Shown: in pieces, positions 1,325 to 64,000 of the stretch
Numbering within the stretch: the stretch's first letter is position 1
How the letters are laid out: every line of letters starts with the position of its first letter
Assembly (NCBI RefSeq): GCF_028694605.1
Contig: NZ_JAQVKP010000006.1
Location: 62,001 to 126,000 of the forward strand
Source: Sulfurimonas sp.
Lineage (GTDB): Bacteria; Campylobacterota; Campylobacteria; Campylobacterales; Sulfurimonadaceae
Direction: 5' to 3'
DNA: 64,000 bases
Program-made: the position numbers and the translations under genes
Notes under the pieces: model-generated
The model's input: the letters and a program-made list of their open reading frames with translations, nothing else
The model's database searches: none
What the model was told of the DNA's origin: nothing

Positions 1325-1399
1325 TCCGAATTAGCTCAGCGGTAGAGTAGGTGACTGTTAATCACTTGGCCACTGGTTCGAATCCAGTATTCGGAGCCA
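1325..1399 (+). tRNA. tRNA-Asn (anticodon GTT), copy 1
   Basis: The acceptor stem pairs TCCGAAT with ATTCGGA. The anticodon arm is GGTGA-CTGTTAA-TCACT, giving GTT at 1357-1359. The T arm contains GGTTCGAATCC. CCA is encoded at 1397-1399. The 75-nt sequence is identical to the copy at 20681-20755. Confidence 0.97.
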
Positions 1400-20680: not shown

Positions 20681-20755
20681 TCCGAATTAGCTCAGCGGTA
20701 GAGTAGGTGACTGTTAATCACTTGGCCACTGGTTCGAATCCAGTATTCGGAGCCA
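20681..20755 (+). tRNA. tRNA-Asn (anticodon GTT), copy 2, at island border
   Basis: It is identical over 75 nt to the copy at 1325-1399, with CCA at 20753-20755. It sits 11 bases after tRNA-Met. Accessory, AT-rich sequence starts directly downstream, so its 3' end is a plausible integration site for the island. Confidence 0.97.
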
Positions 20756-25766: not shown

Positions 25767-27164
25767 CTATTTATGTTTAGATAGTACTATACATCCATGC
25801 CCTTTATAATCTTTATCTTCCATCCATTTTTCATCATCATGATTTAAGCCAAGAGAACTGATTATTTCATCACTTTTTTTATATTGGCTATGAACCAAAT
25901 TTATTGTGTCGATCTCTTTTAGTCGATGAAGATTTTTTACAAAAAATGGCAAAAGCCTATCATCAAAGCTTATTTTTTCAATATTTTCCAAATTGACATA
26001 TTTCAATGAACTTTCATCTATTAATGTATTTTCAATATCAAGTTCTTTAAGCTTGATCAGTTTACTGACCGTAGATGGAAGTGAGTCAATAGAATTGTTC
26101 GATAAAATCAGATTATTCAGCTCAACCAGATTACCAATTTCTTCAGGTATTTCCTGTATCGCATTCCCATGAAGACATAAAACAGTGAGCTTGTTTAATT
26201 GAAAAAGAGTCTCTGGCAAGAATTTGATTTGGTTATTGCACAACATTAATAAAATACAATTTTTTAGCGAATTGATATTTTTAGGGATCTCTTTTATATG
26301 ATTGTTGAGTAAGGTCAGAAATCTGACTTCACTCAATACTTCGCAAAATTCATCTGGTATATATTCCAGATTTTGATCGTTTAGCTCAAAAACTATTGTC
26401 CCAAGTAGCTCAGCCCTGTTTCTTGGGAATATGTTTTGTTTAATATCATTCTCTTTGCCCCAAGCGATAAGATTCTTCAGCTTTTTGATTTTATTAATGT
26501 TTTTTATTAAAACAAATGCTCTTATATCTTTTGGATCGTTTTCATTTATCTCCATAGCAAGGTTAAAATTTTCTTTTTGAGCATATGGAGCTATTTTTTC
26601 AAATGTATGTTTGAATGTATCACACAACTCTTCTGGAAGATGGAAAATATATGTAGTAAAAATCTCTTTAACTATGCCATTATAATAAAGAGAAGCATAT
26701 TGCCCATATTCATCTTCTATAATGATATTTGAATAGTGCTTGCCATTATTGGAATGTTCAAGAGGCGGTTCAAAAACCTCAAGTCGCTTATTGCTAAAAT
26801 CAAGAAACTCTGCTAGTTCCAAATCAATATTTTTTATAGGTTTAGAATCTAGAATTCTAAGAGTAGTTGTTGTAAAAATATTCTCAAAAGCATATAGCTC
26901 CTCGGCGATGTTGGTTTTTTCGTCTTCATTTCCAAAATAATCCACTTCGTCCGAATATGACTTAAGATGGCTGAAGATCTTTCTAGTTACAAAAAATGTA
27001 AAATTTTCTTCGTTAATTGATTCAGTAATTTTGGAAAAAAGCTCTTTTGATTGAAACATGCTTGCTATGATTGAAATTTCAATTTTACATAGATCATTAA
27101 TGTTGATTCGTGATTCTCCTTGCCACCAGTTTGTGTCTATATTAATTGTTTCAGGAGCTTCCAT
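25767..27164 (-). CDS. Leucine-rich-repeat protein
   Basis: The 465-residue protein has a unique N-terminal part (1-255), then about five LRR units (264-385), with the pattern LxxLxLxxNxIxxIPxxI seen in FLTLLNNHIKEIP, LLMLCNNQIKFLP, LCLHGNAIQEIP and LILSNNSIDSLP. The C-terminal tail has HDDEKWMEDKDYKGHG. ATG 27164 is chosen over an earlier in-frame start because AGAGG precedes it and the earlier start would run into the integrase. It may form a unit with the ClpX-like ATPase. A decayed copy lies at 59530-59818. Confidence 0.75.
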   Translation of the reverse strand: MEAPETINIDTNWWQGESRININDLCKIEISIIASMFQSKELFSKITESINEENFTFFVTRKIFSHLKSYSDEVDYFGNEDEKTNIAEELYAFENIFTTTTLRILDSKPIKNIDLELAEFLDFSNKRLEVFEPPLEHSNNGKHYSNIIIEDEYGQYASLYYNGIVKEIFTTYIFHLPEELCDTFKHTFEKIAPYAQKENFNLAMEINENDPKDIRAFVLIKNINKIKKLKNLIAWGKENDIKQNIFPRNRAELLGTIVFELNDQNLEYIPDEFCEVLSEVRFLTLLNNHIKEIPKNINSLKNCILLMLCNNQIKFLPETLFQLNKLTVLCLHGNAIQEIPEEIGNLVELNNLILSNNSIDSLPSTVSKLIKLKELDIENTLIDESSLKYVNLENIEKISFDDRLLPFFVKNLHRLKEIDTINLVHSQYKKSDEIISSLGLNHDDEKWMEDKDYKGHGCIVLSKHK

Positions 27165-27207
27165 TATTATCCTCTTTAAAACCACAAATTCCGCACTTTC
27201 CGCACTT

Positions 27208-28239
27208 CTAAGCGGCGTGTTCCGTATCTTGCTCAAAATGGGACACGAAAACCTTGAAATCTCTTTCGTTTTCTATGTGGTGTCCGTACACTGTTTCTAT
27301 CATTTTCATGTCAACGTGTCCTACCATTTTCTTTATGAGCATTGGGTTTTCTCCTGCGCTTAGTAGGAGTGAAACGCATGTGTGTCTCATGGCGTGTGGG
27401 GTCTTTGGGTCTATGCCTAGCTCTTCTTGTAGCTTTTTGAGTTCTATGGACGGTCTGCCTATGTGTGTGAACTCTTTGCCCAGTACCCACTCGCTTGTTT
27501 TTTCTATGGTTTGGAGGTATGCTTTGAGTGGTGGCGGCATCTTGAAGGTTCTAGTTTTTCCGCTTTTTGGCAAGTTGAGAGAGCCTAAGCAGTTTCTGGT
27601 TTGGTTAATGCTCATCTTGTCGCCTTTGATGTCGTTCCACTTTAGAGCGATTATCTCGCCTGCCCTTGCTCCACTCAAGAAGCCTACCATCAAAAAAGTT
27701 TTTAACATACCTTTGGCGTTGTGCAGCAGGCTGTGCATTTCCTCTTTTGAAAAAATCTCTTTTTCCTCTTCCCTGGCCTTTGGCTTTTTGGCTTTTTTGA
27801 CTGGGTTTTTGTTTATGATGTCCAGTCGGTACGCTTCATCAAATGCAAGTGAGAGCGGTGCGAGATATGTTTTTATGCTCTTTGGCTTCATCCCTGCACG
27901 AGATAGCTCTCTTATGTACTCATCTACATCTTGCGTGGAGATAGTTGCTATGTGAAGTGTGGGAGAGAAATACTCTAACGCTCTTCGTATGGCTATCTCA
28001 TAGAGTTTGTAAGTCGCTGGTTTCTTCTCCAGCGTGTCCTCTAGCACTATGTTAAGGTACTCTTGCAGACCGTGTTTTTGCTTTTTTGGTGTTGTTAGCT
28101 TTGGTATGAGCGTTTTTTGCGCATACTCACGATTTGCAGGTGTGTCTGCTAGCTCCAAAGATTTTTTAAATCTCTTGCCTTTTATCTTAAAATCTGCGTA
28201 TAATACGCCTGACCTTTCAAATAACCTCATATCCATCAT
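27208..28239 (-). CDS. Phage tyrosine recombinase (integrase)
   Basis: The 343-residue protein has an N-terminal arm-binding part, a SAM-like core-binding domain (about 55-150) and the catalytic domain. Catalytic residues are visible: Arg in SGARAGEI, His-x-x-Arg in HAMRHTCVSLLLSAG, His in VGHVDMKM and Tyr in ETVYGHH. It catalyses integration and excision. It is the leftmost phage gene and its start overlaps the small gene at 28217. Confidence 0.92.
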   Translation of the reverse strand: MMDMRLFERSGVLYADFKIKGKRFKKSLELADTPANREYAQKTLIPKLTTPKKQKHGLQEYLNIVLEDTLEKKPATYKLYEIAIRRALEYFSPTLHIATISTQDVDEYIRELSRAGMKPKSIKTYLAPLSLAFDEAYRLDIINKNPVKKAKKPKAREEEKEIFSKEEMHSLLHNAKGMLKTFLMVGFLSGARAGEIIALKWNDIKGDKMSINQTRNCLGSLNLPKSGKTRTFKMPPPLKAYLQTIEKTSEWVLGKEFTHIGRPSIELKKLQEELGIDPKTPHAMRHTCVSLLLSAGENPMLIKKMVGHVDMKMIETVYGHHIENERDFKVFVSHFEQDTEHAA

Positions 28240-32081: not shown

Positions 32082-33490
32082 TCTCTAGCGTATAAATCCC
32101 CAAACCCCTATAAATCCCCGATTACACCCAATATCTCAAGTACAGCAGTTCCGCTCCCCACACCCCGCACCCCATCAATGACGAGCAGTAACCGTAATAA
32201 GTGCGCTTTGGTACTTTGGCATCAAGTGGGGGGATGGAGAGGTGGGGTGTTTTTTTTTGCGTGTTGCGTTTCGTTTTGAGTTTTTGAGTTTGGATTTGAT
32301 GTTGTTTTTGAGTTTGGTTTTGGTTTTTTGATGCTTTTGTTTGGATTTTTGGCGTGGGTGTTGATGAAAAAAAGAGCTAAAAACGTCTAAAAAGGAACAG
32401 AAAAAGGAACACTTGAGGCTTGAAACGCCCTTGTTTGTGGGGATTGTAGTTAACAATCACTTAATTTTGGCAATGAAACGGCGTGGTTTGGTTTGGTTGT
32501 GCATAGTAATCACTATGCGGTTTGGTTTGGTTGTGCATAGTAATCACTATGCGGTTTGGTTTGGTTGTGCATAGTAATCACTATGCGGTGTGACTAGATT
32601 TGTGTGGCGGTTGTCTTGCTTCTTTGGCTGGATGGTTAGGCGTGGTGTGATGGTTTTGCGGTTGGATGGGCTGATTTGTGTGGGTGTACCCACCCCAACA
32701 CACCTCGCAACATCTACACTAAGCCCTGTGAGAAAAATTTTGAGATTTTCAAACGATGTTGCAGGGCTAAAATGGGGCTAAAGTTCAAATTTGGCTCTTT
32801 TTGGGGTTGATTTTGCTTTTTTGGAAGTGCTATTTTGACATTCTTAAACTTTGCTTTTTTCCTTAAAAGTTGCTTGGAAACTCTGTTTAGCGTTTTTTTT
32901 GGGTGTAATAAAGTGCCAAAAAGGGGCAAAAATGAGGGTTGTGTTTTGCGATTTTGGGCTGATTACAGTACAAACGGCACTTTTGGGGAAATGGGGGCGG
33001 GGGCAAAGTGCCTAAAATGCGATGGTTACAGTACACGCTGTAATACCGCCTACTACCCTAATCTTTTTTTACCTCTTTTTTCTTTTTTTTCTTCTCTCTT
33101 TTTACTCTAATATATATAAATATTAACCTTTTTTTCTCACACTAAATAGAAGAAAAAGATGTAAAGCTATAACTTAAACTCTTTAAGCCCCTATAATAAG
33201 GGCTTTTCTTTCTCTTTTTTCCCTGTATTGGGCTGTAATCTTAAAGTTACTCTGTTTTGCTTAGAATGTCGATAAATAGGGGTTTGATGGTGGATTACAG
33301 AAGTGTTGGAGAGTTGGGAATTTGGCAAAAATGAGAAAAAAAGTGTAAAAAAAGTGGCTTTTTTGGCACTCATATAAAAGTTTTCTTAGGGCTATTGTGG
33401 GGTTTTTTGATTTGGTTTAAGGTTTGGCGTTATGGGTTGGGCGGGACTGAAGTCCCACCTCCTTTGTTGTGTGAGCTAAAAAAATTGTGT
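32082..33490. other. 1.4-kb non-coding region of the prophage
   Basis: No open frame has credible coding character; those present are low-complexity. The top strand is strongly T- and G-rich. It contains the three 34-bp repeats, a duplicated AAAAAGGAAC stretch (32390-32412), the inverted repeat TTACAG-N6-CTGTAA (33026-33043), copies of AAAGTGCC/GGCACTTT near 32910-33012, and GGGACT-GA-AGTCCC (33443-33456). It separates the early leftward genes from the next block and could hold a replication origin or a regulatory centre. Confidence 0.6.
32485..32586. repeat. Three perfect 34-bp tandem repeats, each with a hairpin
   Basis: The unit starts GGTTTGGTTTGGTTGT and ends in GCATAGT-AATC-ACTATGC, a 7-bp inverted repeat with a four-base loop. 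Copies are at 32485-32518, 32519-32552 and 32553-32586 with no differences. There are no spacers, so it is not a CRISPR. The layout is iteron-like. Confidence 0.9.
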
Positions 33491-35388: not shown

Positions 35389-35794
35389 AATGGTATCTCC
35401 TCTCCATCGATGTCAACTTGTGGTTGCTCTTTTGGTACGTTTTCATAGACAACTTCCGGCGGCTTTGCGCTCTCTTGTTTGCTTCCTAGCATCTGCATAC
35501 TTTCCACCATGACGCTATGTTTGGAGTGGCGTTGTCCGTCCTTTTCCCATGTGTCATGTTTGAGCCTGCCCTCTACTAAAATCTTGCTCCCTTTTTGAGG
35601 TACTGGTTTGCTACCTCTGCGCTGCGTCCGAAAAAGGAGATATCCACAAAGCAGACATCCTCTTTTTTCTCGCCGTTGCTTGTATATTTATGGCTTGTTG
35701 CGATTGCCGTGTTTGCTAGAGCCGTGCCGCTTGGCAAGTAGCGCAACTCCACCTCTCTTGTTAAGTTTCCTACTAAAATGATCTTGTTATACAT
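35385..35794 (-). pseudogene. ssb: Single-stranded DNA-binding protein with -1 frameshift
   Basis: The first frame reads MYNKIILVGNLTREVELRYL up to NQYLKKG and then hits a stop at 35576. The -1 frame continues in perfect SSB consensus: [30 protein letters not shown] and a classic acidic C-terminal tail ending DIDGEEIPF at 35385. The shift falls at AAAAAGGG (minus strand, 35589-35596). Either one base was lost, the assembly is wrong, or ribosomes slip on AAA-AAG as in dnaX. The product would protect single-stranded phage DNA during replication. It follows the terminase gene without a gap. Confidence 0.8.
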
Positions 35795-37192
35795 CTACCA
35801 TGGTCTCCTTCTTCTTTGGTTTGGTGCTGTTTGGTTTTTGGACATATCTCTTTTGAAAGTGTAGTTTTGCAAGTAACTTAGTGCATCAATGATGTCATCG
35901 TGTGCGCCTCTTGGAAATGTGAGCAGTTCGTTTTCTAGTTCGCTCAAAAACTCTAGTTCTTTGCAAAAGTGTATTTTTTTGGCACGGAAAAGGGGTTGCA
36001 AGGCACTAATGCGTTTAAACTTAGCATCTGGTACGTTTGAGGCTTTTATCTCGTCTAGGGGCAGATATGAGCCGTTTTCTTTTGCGAGTGTGTCGAGAAC
36101 AAAAAAGAAGCCCTCCACTCCTGCTTTGTTCTCTATGCCTATGCGAAGTGGCTTCTCTCTCTCATAGAGGCTGTAAAGCTCTCGTCCTATCTTGTCTGTT
36201 TTGGCACTCCACTTACCCGCTGTGATATCAAGGATGAAGATGTCGTTTGCTTCTGATAAGCCTACCGTGACAAATGCGGTGTAGTCGCTTCTGGCGTTTT
36301 GCGTGAGTGCTAAGTCGCAAAGTGTGTAGGTGTAGCGTGAGAGTGCAAGGGCTTCCTCTCTTGCTATGTAAACAAAGTCGCTTCTCTTGAACGTTGCGTT
36401 CTCTTCGTCGATGATTTGGCACATCATCTCCATGAGCCAAAGGTTGCCTAGTCCGTTGCCTTTGTAGCTCTCATACTCCTCTTTGAGCATCGATGTTGAA
36501 AATCTATCTTCCCAGACGCTTTTGTCATCTTCAAAGACTGGGATTTTTACGGTTTTGAAGCGTTGGTCGTTTTCTAGGTTTACCACCACGCTGTCTTGGT
36601 GGATGTAGTTACCTATGTTTATGAACTTGATGCGTTTTGCATCAAAGGCTTTTAGCACCTCTCCATAAACAAAGCGTTTGGTGCGTTCTCTCTCAAGCTT
36701 ACTCTCAACTGTTTCGTAACTCTCAATATCATCTAATATGATAAGCGTAGGACGGCTTCCGCCTTTTGCTCTTGCCCCTCTTATCTTTTTTTCTCTGGTT
36801 AAAAAACGAATCTTTGAGGTCTTTTGCTCTGAGGTGTGCGTGATGGAGAGCGTGAGTTCGCCTGCTGTTTTTATGTCGATATTCATCGCCTCTTTGATAG
36901 TCTCTAACGCCTCACTAAAAGCGTCAAATGCTTCACGTGCTAAGTCTTTTGTTTCTCGGGCTATGATGGTGTAGGGTTCTTTATCGAGGACGATAGCGGC
37001 GAGTGGGTAAAGATATGCCGCCCATGTGGACTTGGCGCAACCACGAAATCCTGTGATGTTTGTGTAGGTGTTTGCGTTGATGGTGTCGAGGATTTCTTTG
37101 TGAAAACTTTTGATGCTGACTTTGTTGTTTTGTGCGCCGATTTCCCCAGGGAAGAAGAGTGCTGCAAAGTTGATAATTTCTTTTGTTGTCAT
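35795..37192 (-). CDS. Terminase large subunit
   Basis: The 465-residue protein has Walker A GFRGCAKST (about 48-56), Walker B LIILDDIE (about 148-155) and an RNase H-like nuclease domain with CDLALTQNARSDYTAF and PRGAHDDIIDALSYL. It packages phage DNA into the prohead. It lies on the opposite strand to the capsid genes, separated from the small subunit by a rightward gene. Confidence 0.9.
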   Translation of the reverse strand: MTTKEIINFAALFFPGEIGAQNNKVSIKSFHKEILDTINANTYTNITGFRGCAKSTWAAYLYPLAAIVLDKEPYTIIARETKDLAREAFDAFSEALETIKEAMNIDIKTAGELTLSITHTSEQKTSKIRFLTREKKIRGARAKGGSRPTLIILDDIESYETVESKLERERTKRFVYGEVLKAFDAKRIKFINIGNYIHQDSVVVNLENDQRFKTVKIPVFEDDKSVWEDRFSTSMLKEEYESYKGNGLGNLWLMEMMCQIIDEENATFKRSDFVYIAREEALALSRYTYTLCDLALTQNARSDYTAFVTVGLSEANDIFILDITAGKWSAKTDKIGRELYSLYEREKPLRIGIENKAGVEGFFFVLDTLAKENGSYLPLDEIKASNVPDAKFKRISALQPLFRAKKIHFCKELEFLSELENELLTFPRGAHDDIIDALSYLQNYTFKRDMSKNQTAPNQRRRRPW

Positions 37193-38482: not shown

Positions 38483-38959
38483 ATGGATATTTCAGAGCTA
38501 ATGGGTGCTGGTGCACCTCCGCCTAATGCAACACCGCCAAGTGCAATGCCCAATCCTCTTGAAGAGAAGATTGCCGCACTTGAAGCGCAAGTTGCAGGAA
38601 CAAAGTCAAAGCTGGATGATATGGTTGTAAAGCAGCAAAGAGCTGATCTGCTTAGCGAGTATAGCGGATTCAAAGCTTCAATCCCTGATTTTGATGAGAG
38701 CGCATTTTTTGCATCGCTTGAAGAAAAGTACAATGGGTATGTAGCAGAGGGTGCAACACCTGAGCAAGCGCAAGCGCTTGTGGATAAGGTTTTTCAAAAC
38801 CCAATTGGATGGAGAGCCGTCTGGGGCGAGATAGTGCAAAAGAGTGCGCCGCAAACACCAGACGCCATCATCCCGTCCGTGAACGGGTCGAATGTAGAAG
38901 AGTTGCCTGCGACAAGAGCGGGCTTAGGTAAATTTTTAAACAAACAAGGAGCTAAATAA
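38483..38959 (+). CDS. Probable capsid scaffolding protein
   Basis: The 158-residue protein has a Pro/Ala-rich start, a coiled coil (about 28-60), acidic helical segments and a basic end (AGLGKFLNKQGAK). This matches phage scaffolds in size, character and position directly before the major capsid gene. TAATG overlap couples it to the capsid gene. The assignment rests on context. Confidence 0.65.
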   Translation: MDISELMGAGAPPPNATPPSAMPNPLEEKIAALEAQVAGTKSKLDDMVVKQQRADLLSEYSGFKASIPDFDESAFFASLEEKYNGYVAEGATPEQAQALVDKVFQNPIGWRAVWGEIVQKSAPQTPDAIIPSVNGSNVEELPATRAGLGKFLNKQGAK

Positions 38960-39885
38960 TGGCAGCTTTAACACCAAATTCAAACTTAAGTACACTGTTT
39001 CCTAACCTTGCGGTCGGGACTGAACCGTCTATCTTAGAAAACATTTTACTTGTAGGCGCAAAAGATACGCCTATGCTTCGTGAAATCAAGAGAGTTCCTG
39101 TAAGCAACGTTAAGTCTGTATGGCTACATGATGCGCTTAGAGCTCCTCGCTCTGCTTCTGCTTCTGCTTCTAAGTATGTGCAAGATTTTGCCGCTTCTAC
39201 TTCAAACACGAGCGTTGAGAATGAGAACGTTGTTCAAATCTTCCGTGATGATGTCTCTGTTGCTAAAATTTTTCAAAATATCTCTAGCATCGATAAGCAA
39301 GCTGAGTTTGAGAGACAGCTCTCTAAGCGTTCTATAGAGCATCTCTTAGACATTGAAAACTCTTTTTGGGGTGCGCAATCACCGTTCTTGAGCTCAAACG
39401 ACACGGAGAAAAACGTAGTCGGCGGTGTATGGCACTTTGCGGCAAACCAAACAACCGACTACGCAGGCAAAGTCCTAACCTTTGATGATATCTTGGATAT
39501 CCAACAAAAAGTCTATGATGCAGGCGGAGACCCTAGAAAAATCTTTGTAGGTGCGGCTATGAAGCGTAAAATCAACACTATCGTTGAGAGTAAAAAAGTG
39601 AGCCGCTATGTGCAAAGTGATAGCAGAAAAGTGGACTTCCTCATCTCTACGATAGAGACGGACTTCGGTGCGACGGATATCGTGTTAACACGCTTTATGA
39701 AAGATATGCCTGACCGCATCCTTTGTTGTGACCCTGAGAGCATAGAACTTGGTATCTTGCAAGATACAACTATCTCTAAACCTGAGGGAGATAACCTTGC
39801 TGACAATGCCATCATCTACTCTGGTATGACGTACCACTTTAGAAACACGTTTGCGCTCTCTGCTGGCGTGGGATTTGCGGTGTAA
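38959..39885 (+). CDS. Major capsid protein (SU10/DUF5309-like)
   Basis: The 308-residue protein has the pattern of the SU10 major capsid group: an N-terminal ILENILLVGAKDTPMLREI, a central DDILDIQQKVYDAGGDPRKIFVG and a C-terminal Gly/Ala-rich end with FRNTFALSAGVGFAV. It follows the scaffold gene directly. It forms the icosahedral shell by HK97-type folding in that family. Family naming is by eye. Confidence 0.75.
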   Translation: MAALTPNSNLSTLFPNLAVGTEPSILENILLVGAKDTPMLREIKRVPVSNVKSVWLHDALRAPRSASASASKYVQDFAASTSNTSVENENVVQIFRDDVSVAKIFQNISSIDKQAEFERQLSKRSIEHLLDIENSFWGAQSPFLSSNDTEKNVVGGVWHFAANQTTDYAGKVLTFDDILDIQQKVYDAGGDPRKIFVGAAMKRKINTIVESKKVSRYVQSDSRKVDFLISTIETDFGATDIVLTRFMKDMPDRILCCDPESIELGILQDTTISKPEGDNLADNAIIYSGMTYHFRNTFALSAGVGFAV

Positions 39886-40552: not shown

Positions 40553-41614
40553 ATGGGATTCGTTGAAAATGTGAATGTTTTATTGCAGAATATGCCTGCA
40601 CTTGAGGGTTTTGCCTCTCAATCTGCCGGGTCTGCCGCACAGTCTGAGGGTTTTGCCTCTCAATCTGCCGGGTCTGCCGCACAGTCTGAGGGTTTTGCCG
40701 CTCAATCTGCCGGGTCTGCATTGCAGTCTGAGGGTTTTGCCGCTACTGCAACCATGCAAGCAGGTATAGCGACCGCAAAAGCAAACGAGATAAAGAATGT
40801 AACGGCACAAGCCGCGACACTTGTGGCTGGAAGTCTTGCAACTGCAAGCTACAATCCGGTGGATGGAAAGCTAACCTTTGGTATCCCACAGGGAGCAAAG
40901 GGAGCAAAGGGGGATAGTTTTACAGTTAATGCAGTAGGGCTTCTCTCCCAAAAGTCTCTTTATGATTTGCAAACAGCAGGCTTTAGCTTTTTGGCACTTG
41001 ATGAAGCGCTTATCTACTTCAAGCTTAGTGCAACATCTGCCGACTGGTCACTTGGCTCTCCGTTTGGAAAAGGCGAGACTGGCGATACAGGAGCAACTGG
41101 TAACGGCATAGCAAGTGTGAGTTTTTTCAGTACAACCGACATAAGCGGATTTGCTGCACAAAGTGGAGCTACGGACACTTACCGCATCACGTTTACAGAT
41201 ACAACGACAAGCGACTTTACTATACACAACGGACTTGATAGCGATGTGTTTATGGTGGATTTGACTGCTTTAGAAAACTCTTTTGTAGCTTCCTTTAATA
41301 CGAAAGCCAATAAAGATTTTAGTAATGTAACAGCTTTGCCGTTGTCAGTGGTGGAGCAGCTCAAAGGACCTGCCGGAGCAACTGGACCTGCCGGAGCAAC
41401 TGGACCTGCTGGAGCAACTGGACCTGCCGGAGCAACTGGACCTGCTGGACCGTCGGGTCTTGTAAGTTGGTCATTTTCAGCCGCTAAAAACCTAGCGATT
41501 AGCTCAACACAATACATCGCTGGCGACACATACTCTCTTGTAATCAATGGTGTTACCAAGCGCGCTTATACCGGGGCAATAACCAATATATCTAGTTGTG
41601 GAGGATGTGGATGA
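40553..41614 (+). CDS. Collagen-like tail fibre ending in SSCGGCG
   Basis: The 353-residue protein starts with a short N-terminal part (MGFVENVNVLLQNMPALEGF). Three copies of a 14-residue Ala/Ser repeat (EGFASQSAGSAAQS) follow, then a Gly-rich linker and globular parts. Four GPAGAT repeats plus GPAGPSG (about 272-302) form a collagen-type triple helix. A small C-terminal domain ends NISSCGGCG. The cysteines are the only ones seen in this protein. The gene overlaps the next start. It most likely binds host receptors at the virion tip. The Cys-Gly tail next to two radical SAM genes suggests post-translational modification. Confidence 0.8.
   Translation: MGFVENVNVLLQNMPALEGFASQSAGSAAQSEGFASQSAGSAAQSEGFAAQSAGSALQSEGFAATATMQAGIATAKANEIKNVTAQAATLVAGSLATASYNPVDGKLTFGIPQGAKGAKGDSFTVNAVGLLSQKSLYDLQTAGFSFLALDEALIYFKLSATSADWSLGSPFGKGETGDTGATGNGIASVSFFSTTDISGFAAQSGATDTYRITFTDTTTSDFTIHNGLDSDVFMVDLTALENSFVASFNTKANKDFSNVTALPLSVVEQLKGPAGATGPAGATGPAGATGPAGATGPAGPSGLVSWSFSAAKNLAISSTQYIAGDTYSLVINGVTKRAYTGAITNISSCGGCG
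40604..40729 (+). repeat. Three 42-bp tandem repeats in the tail fibre gene
   Basis: The units at 40604-40645, 40646-40687 and 40688-40729 differ at only a few bases, and a partial fourth follows. Each encodes a 14-residue Ala/Ser/Gln repeat. Near-identity at DNA level suggests recent slippage or recombination. Confidence 0.85.
41366..41455 (+). repeat. 18-bp collagen-like tandem repeats
   Basis: Units of GGACCTGCCGGAGCAACT recur at 41366, 41384, 41402 and 41420, then a variant at 41438. They encode GPAGAT. The number can change by slippage. Confidence 0.85.
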
Positions 41615-59938: not shown

Positions 59939-60949
59939 ATGCTATTAAAAAAACAAATAATAACTTTAAATGACGGCACAACAACAGAAGCACAGGCTCC
60001 TGTTATTATTTCTGCTAGTCGTTCTACAGACATACCTGCATTTTATAGTGACTGGTTCATAAACAGATGGGAAGCTGGATATATAAGGTGGACAAATCCA
60101 TTCAATGGCAAACCTCTTTATGTCTCGTTTGCAAATGCAAGAGTAGTTGTATTTTGGACAAAAAATCCTCGACCTATGTTTAAGTATCTTGATTGGTTAG
60201 ACAAAAATACACCTCAGTACTATTTTCAATACTCTTTAAATGACTATGATGCAGAGGGGTATGAAGCAAAAGTCCCTAGTGTTGAAAGTAGAATAAAAAG
60301 CTTTAAAGAGCTATCACAAAGAGTAGGTAAAAAAAGGGTGGTCTGGAGATTTGACCCGCTTATACTTACCAAAGAGATAGATATAGATGAGTTACTAAGA
60401 CGCATCAAAAAAATAGGTGATGAGCTACATAACTACACAGAAAAACTTGTATTTAGTTTTGTGGATATTGGGATCTACCAAAAAGTACAAAGCAACCTTG
60501 ATAAAGAGCAGGTACCATATATAGAGTGGTCAACTGAACTGATGGATGAGTTTGCTAGTAAGCTGAGTGAGCTTAACAAGGCTTGGAACTTACAGCTAGC
60601 AACTTGTAGCGAAAAAATAGATCTGCAAAAATATAAAATAGCACACAACAAATGTGTTGATGATGATTTGATGATAGAGTTGTTTAGTCATGACAAAGAA
60701 CTTATGGACTTTTTAGGTGTAGAGATACAACAAGCAGATCTTTTTAGTGATGGTGAAGTAGTTAAAACAAAAAAACTAAAAGACAAAGGGCAAAGAGAAG
60801 ATTGCGGCTGTATTGTTGCAAAAGATATAGGTGCATATAATACTTGCCCACATGAGTGTAACTACTGCTATGCAAACGTGTCTAAGCAAGTTGCAAAGAG
60901 AAATTACGAGAGTTATTTGAGTGATAAAAACAAAGAAAGTATTATTTGA
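59939..60949 (+). CDS. DUF1848 family protein
   Basis: The 336-residue protein has the family start IISASRSTDIPAFYSDWFI, NPFNGKPLYVSF and VVFWTKNPRPM. It ends with a cysteine cluster CPHECNYCYAN, which resembles a radical-SAM-type or other Fe-S site at the C-terminus. The biochemical role is unknown. It heads an operon with the WD40 gene, which suggests a conflict or stress role here. Confidence 0.85.
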   Translation: MLLKKQIITLNDGTTTEAQAPVIISASRSTDIPAFYSDWFINRWEAGYIRWTNPFNGKPLYVSFANARVVVFWTKNPRPMFKYLDWLDKNTPQYYFQYSLNDYDAEGYEAKVPSVESRIKSFKELSQRVGKKRVVWRFDPLILTKEIDIDELLRRIKKIGDELHNYTEKLVFSFVDIGIYQKVQSNLDKEQVPYIEWSTELMDEFASKLSELNKAWNLQLATCSEKIDLQKYKIAHNKCVDDDLMIELFSHDKELMDFLGVEIQQADLFSDGEVVKTKKLKDKGQREDCGCIVAKDIGAYNTCPHECNYCYANVSKQVAKRNYESYLSDKNKESII

Positions 60950-61003: not shown

Positions 61004-61339
61004 ATGGGGATTTTTAAAAATATAATTCATGGATATAGAATTTTAAAACATGAAAAAAACAAATGTTGCGAGGAATTGATAAACTATTTAGATGATTTTA
61101 GTGCTGATTTAAAAAGAGAAAGTGAAGAAAGATGGAAAAAGTTATATGACATCTATCAAAAAGATAATAGCTTCATAAACTACATAAAAATGGATTTTAT
61201 ACTCGATGATAAAACTATGAGTGATGATCATATAGAAAAGTTTAACAAAATGTTAGAAATAAAAAAGTTAGAAATTGAATCTGGAAAAATCAGTTATAGT
61301 GAGTTTTTCGGCTATATGAACACATGGAAAAATAGATGA
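61004..61339 (+). CDS. Hypothetical helical protein (111 aa)
   Basis: The protein MGIFKNIIHGYRILKHEKNK is charged and helical, with many Lys and Glu. It ends in an ATGA overlap with the WD40 gene, so the two are translated together. No family is recognised. Confidence 0.65.
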   Translation: MGIFKNIIHGYRILKHEKNKCCEELINYLDDFSADLKRESEERWKKLYDIYQKDNSFINYIKMDFILDDKTMSDDHIEKFNKMLEIKKLEIESGKISYSEFFGYMNTWKNR

Positions 61340-63447
61340 AAAATGATATAACCACAATTAACCAAAACAGTAAGGCAGCGCTTGTAAAATCAAAAAGCTT
61401 GCTTGATGTAACCAATAAAATACTTTCTAAAAAAGATACTAGAGATTTGGTGCAGAGCTTTAGTTATAAACATTTTCTTATGGAAAAGGGACATAGCAAC
61501 GAAGTAAATACCCTTGTCATCACCCCAGATGGAGAGCATATAGTCTCTTCTGAAAGCTATGATGAGAGTATCAAAATCTGGAACATCCAAAGCGGAGAGT
61601 GCTTAAAGACTTTAAAAGGGCATAGTTACAGGGTGAGTACCCTTGCCATCACTCCGGATGGAGAGCATATCGTCTCCGGAAGCGATGATGAAACAATCAA
61701 AATCTGGAACATAAAGAGTGGAGAGTGCTTAAAGACTTTAGAGGGACATAACGGCACAGTAAATACCCTTGCCATCACTCCGGATGGAGAACATATCGTC
61801 TCTGGGAGCTATTATGAACCAATCAAAATCTGGAACATAAAGAGTGGAGAGTGCTTAAAAACTTTAAAAGGACATAGTAGCCGGATACATACCCTTGCCA
61901 TCACTCCGGATGGAGAGCATATAGTCTCTTCTGGAAGCTATTATGAACCAATCAAAATCTGGAACATTCAAAGCGGAGAGTGCATCAAGAATTTAGTGGG
62001 GCATAGTCGCGCAGTAAATACCGTTGCCATCACTCCGGATGGAGAGCATATCGTCTCCGGAAGTGAAGACAAGAGTATCAAAATCTGGAATATAAAAAGC
62101 GGAGAGTGCTTAAAGACTTTAGAGGGACATAACGGCACAGTAAATACCCTTGCCATCACTCCGGATGGAGAGCATATCGTCTCTGGAAGCTATGATGAGA
62201 GTATCAAAATCTGGAACATTCAAAGCGGAGAGTGCTTAAAGACTTTAAAAGGGCATAGTAGCCGGATACATACCCTTGCCATCACTCCGGATGGAGAGTG
62301 TATCGTCTACGGAAGTAAAGATAAGAGTATCAAAATCTGGAATATAAAAAGCGGAGAGTGCTTAAAGACTTTAGAGGGACATAGAAACCGGGTAAATACA
62401 CTTGCCATCACTCCGGATGGAGAGTGTATCGTCTCCGGAAGCGATGATGAAACAATCAAAATCTGGAACATCCAAAGCGGAGAGTGCTTAAAGACTTTAG
62501 AGGGACATAACGGCACAGTAAATACCATTGCCATCACTCCGGATGGAGAGCATATAGTCTCTTCTGGAAGCTATTATAAACCAATCAAAATCTGGAACAT
62601 TCAAAGCGGAGAGTGCTTAAAGACTTTAGATGGGCATAGTTACAGGGTGAGTATCCTTGCCATCACTCCGGATGGAGAGCATATCGTCTCCGGAAGTGAA
62701 GATGACACTAACACTATCAACATCTGGAATATAAAAAGCAAAGAGCGCCTAAAGACTTTAGAGGGACATAACGGCACAGTAATTACCCTTGCCATCACTC
62801 CGGATGGAGAGCATATAGTCTCTTCTGGAAGCTATGATGAGAGTATCAAAATCTGGAACATTCAAAGCGGAGAGTGCTTAAAGACTTTAGAGGGGCATAG
62901 TGGCTGTGTTATGGCTCTTACCATCACTCCGAATGGAGAGCATATCGTCTCTTCTGGAAGCGATGATGAAACAATCAAAATCTGGAATATAAAAAGCGGA
63001 GAGTGCTTAAAGACTTTAGAGGGACATAGTGGCTGGGCAAGTACCCTTGCCATCACTCCTAGTGGGGAGCATATCGTCTCTGGAAGCTATGATGAACCAA
63101 TTAAAATCTGGAATATAAAAAGCGGAGAGTGCTTAAAGACTTTAGAGGGACATAGAAACCAGGTAAATACCCTTGCCATCACTCCGGATGGAGAGCATAT
63201 CGTCTCTGGAAGTGAAGATGGAGCTATAAAAATCTGGAACATTCAAAGCGGAGAGTGTATATATACCATAGATAACTCATACAAAATAGCGATAGATAAA
63301 AATGGTTATTTTAGAGCTGATGATGAAGCTATAGAAAAATATATAAGAGTAAGTGAAACACCGCTTAGTCAAAGAAAACTAACCCATGAAGAGATTGCTC
63401 ACTTTAGAAAAAAAGGGAATTTTATAGAAGCAGGAAGATATGAATAG
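61336..63447 (+). CDS. WD40 protein with 14 near-identical repeats
   Basis: The 703-residue protein has a short N-terminal helical part (1-54), then 14 repeats of about 42 residues with the frame GHxxxVxTLAITPDGEHIVSG and SIKIWNIQSGECLKTL. Fourteen blades make two seven-bladed propellers. Repeats are nearly identical in DNA, and variation is concentrated at the three residues after GH and at the two or three after GS. A C-terminal tail (DNSYKIAIDKNGYFRADDEA) closes it. This fits a recognition scaffold that diversifies by recombination. Its partner is unknown; the operon includes DUF1848 and coiled-coil proteins. Confidence 0.88.
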   Translation: MKNDITTINQNSKAALVKSKSLLDVTNKILSKKDTRDLVQSFSYKHFLMEKGHSNEVNTLVITPDGEHIVSSESYDESIKIWNIQSGECLKTLKGHSYRVSTLAITPDGEHIVSGSDDETIKIWNIKSGECLKTLEGHNGTVNTLAITPDGEHIVSGSYYEPIKIWNIKSGECLKTLKGHSSRIHTLAITPDGEHIVSSGSYYEPIKIWNIQSGECIKNLVGHSRAVNTVAITPDGEHIVSGSEDKSIKIWNIKSGECLKTLEGHNGTVNTLAITPDGEHIVSGSYDESIKIWNIQSGECLKTLKGHSSRIHTLAITPDGECIVYGSKDKSIKIWNIKSGECLKTLEGHRNRVNTLAITPDGECIVSGSDDETIKIWNIQSGECLKTLEGHNGTVNTIAITPDGEHIVSSGSYYKPIKIWNIQSGECLKTLDGHSYRVSILAITPDGEHIVSGSEDDTNTINIWNIKSKERLKTLEGHNGTVITLAITPDGEHIVSSGSYDESIKIWNIQSGECLKTLEGHSGCVMALTITPNGEHIVSSGSDDETIKIWNIKSGECLKTLEGHSGWASTLAITPSGEHIVSGSYDEPIKIWNIKSGECLKTLEGHRNQVNTLAITPDGEHIVSGSEDGAIKIWNIQSGECIYTIDNSYKIAIDKNGYFRADDEAIEKYIRVSETPLSQRKLTHEEIAHFRKKGNFIEAGRYE

Positions 63448-64000
63448 CTTACTGAAAAACAGGCTCTCTTTATTATTAGAAACATTGAAAATTAAAGATT
63501 ATGAGGTCAGTGAAATTTTAATTGCAAAAATATTAGAACTTGGAGATATAGAACAAGAAATAGATTTGATACTAGAAGATATCATGTTTAAAGATTATAC
63601 TTTAGCTTACCAAAATCTCACAAAATATATAAATACAATGCAAAAGACTCATGATATAACTATTTATGAAGATAAAGAGTTTCATAAATTACAACGAGAA
63701 TTAAAAAAATTAGAAAAAAAACTCCAAAGCCTAAGCGAACAAAAAGCAGAATATCTCAATGATATAGAAGAGTTTAACACACAGTATAATCTCCATCTAG
63801 GTTCTATCATAGAAAATATTCTCAACCTAAAAAAAGAGATACTTTACAAACAAACCATAAAAAAACAAAAGTTAAAAGAGCAGTATGCACAAGATCATAA
63901 AACTTATAATGAAACTAAAGAGACTGTAGATGAACTAAAAAGCACTATAGATGAACTAAAAAATGCACTTGATAATATAGATGAATCTCATGAACAATAC
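63440..64000 (+). CDS. Coiled-coil protein, partial (3' end outside window)
   Basis: ATG 63440 lies inside the end of the WD40 gene. The 187 visible residues are helical: a globular start (MNSLLKNRLSLLLETLKIKD), then a long coiled coil with YNLHLGSIIENILNLKKEIL and repeated TVDELKSTIDELK. Similar N-terminal parts occur in some J-domain proteins, but the end is not visible. It likely acts with the WD40 protein. Confidence 0.7.
   Translation, partial: MNSLLKNRLSLLLETLKIKDYEVSEILIAKILELGDIEQEIDLILEDIMFKDYTLAYQNLTKYINTMQKTHDITIYEDKEFHKLQRELKKLEKKLQSLSEQKAEYLNDIEEFNTQYNLHLGSIIENILNLKKEILYKQTIKKQKLKEQYAQDHKTYNETKETVDELKSTIDELKNALDNIDESHEQY

Follow-up and report, generated by a model that had tools for sequence, protein, structure and literature searches.

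Organization of the locus

The stretch analysed, hereafter the window, comprises 64,000 nucleotides of a Sulfurimonas contig and carries at its end a WD40 gene embedded in a chain of overlapping genes, which encode a 111-aa ORF, the WD40 protein, an 859-aa protein and a 151-aa leader-LRR protein (Table 1). The ATGA stop-start overlap of the 111-aa and WD40 genes suggests that the two are translationally coupled. As the contig ends about 90 bp past the leader-LRR gene, only a portion of the island is visible. Its first gene in the window encodes a DUF1848 protein (77% identical to that of genome G005); a similar gene also adjoins the islands of G005, G321 and G304, as observed at the loci L062, L063 and L116, at the latter two by eye. 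No RT gene was recognised near the DUF1848 gene despite its match to an RT-associated PADLOC model.

Table 1. Position of the features discussed, counted from the first nucleotide of the window
Feature	Position	Strand	Description
tRNA-Asn(gtt)	1325-1399		score equal to that of the second copy
tRNA-Asn(gtt)	20681-20755		after a tRNA-Met, before the prophage-like region
LRR protein	25767-27236	-	beside the prophage integrase; weak DnaB-N-like part
Prophage-like region	about 27200-57400		ends a few kb ahead of the WD40 island
Integrase	27208-28239		in prophage-like region
34-bp unit	32485-32589		in prophage-like region; short inverted repeat, three exact copies
Second SSB gene	35487-35788	-	in prophage-like region; split over two frames, apparently frameshifted; tail ...DIDGEEIPF
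Terminase large subunit	35795-37192		in prophage-like region
SU10-type major capsid protein	38959-39885		in prophage-like region
Collagen-like protein	40553-41614		in prophage-like region; 18-bp repeats
DUF1848 gene	59939-60949	+	336 aa; Pfam PF08902 E=1.6e-93; PADLOC RTasDUF1848 E=9e-41
111-aa protein	61004-61339	+	family not recognised; stop overlaps WD40 start (ATGA)
WD40 protein	61336-63447	+	703 aa; leader, 14 blades and short tail
Leader (MKNDITTINQNSKAALVKSKSLLDVTNKILSKKD...)	61336-61479	+	about 48 aa, N-terminal, predicted helical (low confidence)
Array of 14 WD40 blades	61489-63273	+	aa 52-646; variable columns 3, 4, 5, 7, 23, 25, 26 per blade
C-terminal tail	63274-63444	+	57 aa, last residues NFIEAGRYE; without the SSB-like tip of G005, G109, G321
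859-aa protein gene, start	63440-64000	+	overlaps WD40 gene; continues beyond the window to contig base 128019

The 859-aa protein consists of a coiled coil, a J-like domain, an LRR stretch and a methyltransferase-like C-terminal domain. The HPD motif of the J-like domain is invariant in 8/8 relatives and its profile matches PDB DnaJ chains with E=2.7e-6, so that the gene carries both marks of the J-domain (DnaJ) class. The methyltransferase match of the C-terminal domain is weak (best E=0.003), and a single-sequence model of this domain (pLDDT 43) was too poor for use. PADLOC matched the WD40 operon to no defined defence system: the WD40 protein matched only HEAT-ARM_XIII, across a repeat stretch, and the 111-aa, J-domain and LRR genes gave no hit. 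Completion of the island by a 2CompART gene elsewhere was rejected, as 2CompART was sought in the genome of the window and found to be absent.

Upstream of the island lies a prophage-like region, which besides the features of Table 1 encodes a Bro-N protein, two radical-SAM proteins, a portal/head-tail adaptor, a D5-type primase and a 1746-aa protein with a PBECR nuclease-like domain. The LRR protein beside its integrase resembles at its start and end a 483-aa protein that lies next to the G005 island (L061:1037-2488).

Architecture and amplification of the WD40 array

The WD40 protein contains exactly 14 repeats of 42-44 aa each, preceded by 51 aa in all. This is in line with the Pfam scan (14 WD40 stretches) and with TRF analysis of the gene (period 126, 13.8 copies). 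Pairwise identity of the blades is 60-93% with a median of 76%. The longest stretch repeated exactly within the array measures 71-79 bp, and since none attains 80 bp, a short-read assembly is unlikely to have collapsed the array; an assembly artefact as its source is likewise unlikely.

The AlphaFold2 model of the protein, built on a 3-row alignment, has a mean pLDDT of 68 and a pTM of 0.49; the leader is helical in it, at low confidence. The predicted beta strands number 56, i.e. four for each of the 14 blades. The closest PDB match by both fold and sequence is 2YMU (sequence E=6e-199), a WRAP propeller in which 14 blades form two 7-blade rings (PMC6805158). The window array probably also forms two 7-blade propellers, an arrangement taken from the homologue since the TM-scores against 2YMU over the whole chain are low (0.31/0.37).

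When 49 blades of five proteins were placed in one tree, those of the window, 14 in number, formed a single clade with 100/100 support and were thus amplified or homogenised within the lineage. The blades are more alike to each other than to those of any relative, as is characteristic of recently amplified propellers of the WRAP type. Whether blade number is fixed among relatives had been proposed as a check in the preliminary description; among the leader-sharing WD40 proteins, which come from different species, the number of recognisable blades is 14 in the window, 9 in G321 and 7 in both G005 and G109, and is hence not fixed. In G273 (L071:6124-8579), a leader-WD40 gene is truncated after two blades, with an IS3-type transposase gene just downstream; a J-domain gene fragment follows the truncated gene, which makes this locus a decaying copy of the pair. 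Another recently amplified array occurs in the genus at L005, where an unrelated protein (G078) with an N-terminal hydrophobic segment bears 14 near-identical blades.

Variable columns and codon substitutions

Blade columns are given in a 42-column numbering, in which the G of GH is column 1. The residues following GH are, in blade order, SNE, SYR, NGT, SSR, SRA, NGT, SSR, RNR, NGT, SYR, NGT, SGC, SGW and RNQ. The highest amino acid entropy is displayed by columns 3, 4, 5 and 7 (after GH), by 23, 25 and 26 (after GS) and by the last residue. The preliminary description had located the differences between blades at these two places, and both its list of triplets after GH and the variability just after GS are reproduced. 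Hence 14 near-identical, freshly copied WD40 blades, varying mainly on what is predicted to be one binding surface, are confirmed at the level of sequence.

Seven sites (10, 11, 12, 14, 30, 32 and 39) are used to classify HET-D/E repeats (PMC12222747), and by a constant offset these fall on columns 3, 4, 5, 7, 23, 25 and 32 of the window, the mapping being an alignment made in the present analysis rather than taken from the papers. Six of the seven lie among the eight most variable window columns, while the seventh (column 32) is invariant; the entropy of the six is far above that of random columns (permutation p < 1e-5). The four strongly selected fungal codons, in the pairs 7/9 around a conserved 8 and 25/27 around a conserved 26 (Paoletti; PMC1805685), match columns 5/7 around V6 and 23/25 around D24.

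Counting of codon steps gave a nonsynonymous to synonymous ratio of 22:5 at the six hot sites and 31:29 at the other columns (Fisher p = 0.0095; p = 0.06 once the invariant seventh site is counted in). Nonsynonymous changes predominate at the hot sites, and variation is unevenly spread along the repeat, as the first reading of the array had anticipated. The nonsynonymous share at these sites is 79-81% against about 83% expected without selection, and the 22:5 steps, lying near this expectation, fit neutrality; the hot columns behave neutrally and positive selection there is not demonstrated by the codon-step counts. At the remaining columns, the 31:29 ratio against an expectation of 78% nonsynonymous (p about 1e-5) indicates purifying selection.

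This pattern bears on the possibility that the protein is an ordinary, recently amplified bacterial WD40 propeller, the exposed sites of which vary owing to weaker structural constraint and serve no dedicated role in recognition or diversification. About 20% of the prokaryotic WD40 proteins have raised internal identity, with variable hotspot sites in the highly repetitive ones (Hu et al.; PMC5587647), propellers are known to be continuously amplified from single blades (PMC9218822), and the hot columns are neutral, with no nonsynonymous excess. The control protein L005, from the same genus and of other architecture, has the same median identity and varies largely at the same columns; hotspot variability is thus a general trait of highly repetitive WD40 proteins, in agreement with Hu et al., and the pattern by itself is ordinary for the class. 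This explanation nevertheless leaves unaccounted for the differing blade numbers, a leader common to LRR and Lcl_C modules, and the pairing of constant ends with a divergent core on a transferred island whose other genes are 86-100% identical, all described below; we regard it as unlikely, though deserving of real weight.

The shared leader and its J-domain partner

The leader (consensus NLTTTNQNAKxALSKSKSLLxITNxIL) has no Pfam match among the proteins scanned and precedes three unrelated kinds of domain. It occurs on WD40 proteins in the window, G005, G109 and G321, with a broken copy in G273; on LRR proteins in the gene downstream in the window and in G005, G106, G119, G125 and G321; and on Lcl_C (C-type-lectin-like) proteins in G043 and G321. 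Leader genes were detected at E <= 0.01 in 10 of the 135 genus genomes, several of them weakly; profile A2 detected them, at E <= 0.001, in 6 of 397 phylum genomes, and a contig scan with alignment A3, which represents a closer set, gave four loci in two MAGs, one of Sulfurimonas and one of Sulfurospirillum.

A J-domain protein adjoins the leader genes in the window, G321, G106 and G119, and leader-like LRR genes in G252 and G442, whereas for some leader genes, that of G043 among them, the stretch read contains no J-domain partner. DUF4143 ATPases neighbour leader genes in the sister islands, which also carry a 2CompART ADP-ribosyltransferase together with an SF1 helicase; the G304 island has a MazF/PemK-like toxin gene. 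A viral origin was considered and rejected, as neither the leader nor the methyltransferase-like domain was found in IMG/VR, and the J-domain protein gave only distant plasmid and phage-collection hits, of DnaJ type where annotated.

One short N-terminal element ahead of unrelated domains is also what trafficking modules display. The WD40 protein might accordingly be a polymorphic protein that is delivered or secreted in conflict, in which the leader, common to different effector or adhesin domains, would direct loading or trafficking and the overlapping upstream gene would encode a partner, for instance an immunity protein or an effector. The slot before the WD40 start holds a different small gene in each relative, as would suit this role, and Lcl_C-like domains are found in surface adhesins. 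However, the leader does not resemble a signal peptide, no secretion genes were recognised in the stretches read, and the partners are of intracellular type (J domain, SF1 helicase, ADP-ribosyltransferase, SSB-like tip), all of which makes secretion quite improbable.

Constant ends and variable core

Over the first 48 aa, the WD40 proteins of G005, G109 and G321 share 85-92% identity, and over the last ~90 aa 79-89%. The propeller core in between shows 54-64% amino acid identity as compared to 81-88% for the pooled ends (p from 3e-4 to 1e-11), core values that blade gain or loss can depress, the aligner being nonetheless free to choose the best match. Synonymous differences among the three are also raised, being 34-38% in the core and 10-16% at the ends (p from 1e-6 to 3e-5), so that the core has probably been exchanged or remodelled at the DNA level and not solely through amino acid selection.

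The same discontinuity is evident from a comparison of whole islands. Between G005 (Sulfurimonas) and G321 (Sulfurospirillum), most of the shared genes are 86-100% identical: DUF4143 ATPase 98%, 2CompART 97%, helicase 92%, HEAT-MTase-DUF4145 99%, the 142-aa LRR protein 100% and the J-domain protein 86%. The exceptions are the WD40 core (54%, against 81-92% for the ends of this protein) and the leader-LRR protein (49%). The DUF4143-leader cassettes share 90-100% of their nucleotides as far as the leader, beyond which the value drops to about 30%, one cassette continuing into an LRR part and the other into an Lcl_C part. Upstream of the WD40 ATG, the identity per 30-bp block is 0.2-0.6; at the ATG it jumps to 0.90-0.97 among G005, G109 and G321, and is 0.67-0.73 between the window and these three. 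Constant ends with a variable core, as seen in the three relatives, would result if modules were swapped between islands and genera through recombination around the leader and the ends.

Copies of the host SSB tip

The WD40 tail reads PEIDIDDDEIPF in G005 and G109 and PQIDIDEDEIPF in G321, while the host SSB tip reads PEIDIDEDEIPF. The J-domain protein of G321 ends in LIDIDSDEIPF, the equivalent domain in G110 in FLDIAEDEIPF and the LRR protein of G304 in KIEIDDDEIPF; all of these tails are nearly identical to the host SSB tip. Most SSB-like tails use a TAG stop, and the pattern with TAA or TGA stops matched almost none. The DEIPF-TAG DNA pattern occurs in 101 of the 135 genus genomes, almost always once, against 0 for the reversed control.

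A second copy is present in G005, G109 and seven other genomes. Inspection of those in the seven revealed, among others, SSB or replication proteins of phage type, another SSB, the G110 protein and, in G127, a TIR/deoxyribosyltransferase-like protein, while the copy in G108 gave no clear protein. Proteins other than SSB with a near copy of the tip are encoded at L009, L037, L058, L091/L116, L170 and L173, and are of WD40, J-domain/methyltransferase-like, LRR and TIR/deoxyribosyltransferase-like kinds.

These tails could be read as those of a housekeeping component of replication or repair, in which the copied tip recruits SSB-binding enzymes to a target; that the WD40, J-domain and LRR tails of relatives copy the host tip, in a pattern found about once per Sulfurimonas genome, agrees with it. 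The WD40 and J-domain proteins of the window itself are devoid of the tip, so the tip is not needed for the WD40/J-domain arrangement. Moreover, the patchy distribution of the leader, confined to few of the 135 genus genomes, and the signs of horizontal transfer are ill suited to a housekeeping function, which renders this the least credible of the explanations, with very little probability.

Proposed function

The balance tips slightly towards the WD40 array being the variable recognition module of a modular and probably defensive island, renewed by blade amplification and module exchange. In such an island, the WD40 protein would act as an intracellular recognition module, the variable top-face loops of two 7-blade propellers binding a ligand; the fold is deduced from 2YMU and a model of moderate quality. 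The array would be renewed by blade duplication and homogenisation, as the single-clade tree and the varying blade number suggest. The helical leader may serve as a docking element that plugs interchangeable WD40, LRR and Lcl_C domains into one machinery. The most constant partner in this machinery is the J-domain coiled-coil protein with its methyltransferase-like end, which co-occurs with the leader genes and might form a complex with their products and recruit Hsp70.

The likeliest purpose would be to guard the cell against phage and other mobile DNA, or to take part in another cell-level conflict. Circumstantial support for a conflict role comes from the ADP-ribosyltransferase with SF1 helicase, the MazF/PemK-like toxin and the link of WRAP to immunity. 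Against a defence reading count the lack of a PADLOC system match, a window genome without 2CompART, the weak methyltransferase match and a J-domain pairing that is not universal.

More tentatively, with somewhat less than even probability, the islands may represent an as yet undescribed modular recognition system of the Campylobacterales, in which a leader of ~35-48 aa joins WD40, LRR or lectin-like receptors to a J-domain/methyltransferase-like machine. Receptors would be exchanged and renewed by leader recombination and blade amplification, and several receptor and partner ends, copying the host SSB tip, would tie recognition to replication and repair enzymes. If so, three recognition folds are interchangeable behind one short leader, the SSB-tip copies on receptors offer a lead on the linking of recognition to the replication machinery, and the system provides a test bed for bacterial receptor diversification.

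Comparison with known systems

Bacterial NTP-dependent and EAD/death-like conflict systems (PMC7159879, PMC8195603) similarly combine variable repeat or propeller modules, small shared adaptors and a common apparatus, but no MoxR-vWA core was seen here and the leader is not demonstrably an EAD, death-like or TRADD-N domain. In the bNACHT25 system (PMC12169576), a J-domain chaperone also takes part in sensing; it is the host DnaJ there, whereas here a dedicated J-domain gene adjoins the putative receptor and there is no NACHT protein.

The likeness to fungal HET-D/E proteins that the preliminary description proposed holds in part. As in the fungal HNWD proteins, internal blade identity is high, repeat number differs, a two-propeller model is likely and six of seven hypervariable sites coincide with variable columns; the recent internal amplification and a propeller core that diverges more than its flanks add to the resemblance. 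On the other hand, the fungal repeat positions are under diversifying selection while substitutions at the matching window positions fit neutrality, with positive selection not demonstrated and the pattern common to L005. The fungal proteins, besides belonging to a fungal host, have a HET and a NACHT domain ahead of their repeats. Membership of the HET-D/E family was rejected, as the families shown included neither HET nor NACHT (nor STAND) and only the 51-aa leader stands before blade 1.

The bacterial WRAP/highly repetitive WD40 class is the closer precedent; highly repetitive WD40 proteins are defined by a minimum of six repeats, out of eight in a row, that all share at least 70% pairwise identity (Hu et al. 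2017). WRAP-type propellers have been linked to prokaryotic innate immunity (PMC9218822). WRAP of Nostoc punctiforme (Npun_R6612, 2YMU) shares with the window protein the 14 blades and the recent internal amplification, and is its best match in sequence and fold. Its blades are nearly identical, whereas those of the window are more divergent (median 76%). WRAP is the terminal part of a protein with a STAND ATPase, coupled to a TIR-STAND gene; the window has a short leader of helical type and a partner with a J domain instead. No STAND/NACHT match was found before blade 1 or in the downstream gene, so the STAND/TIR feature of WRAP is lacking. If the proposed function is correct, Sulfurimonas and its relatives would share with fungal HET and cyanobacterial WRAP proteins the trick of freshly copied blades with a variable face, mounted on another chassis.
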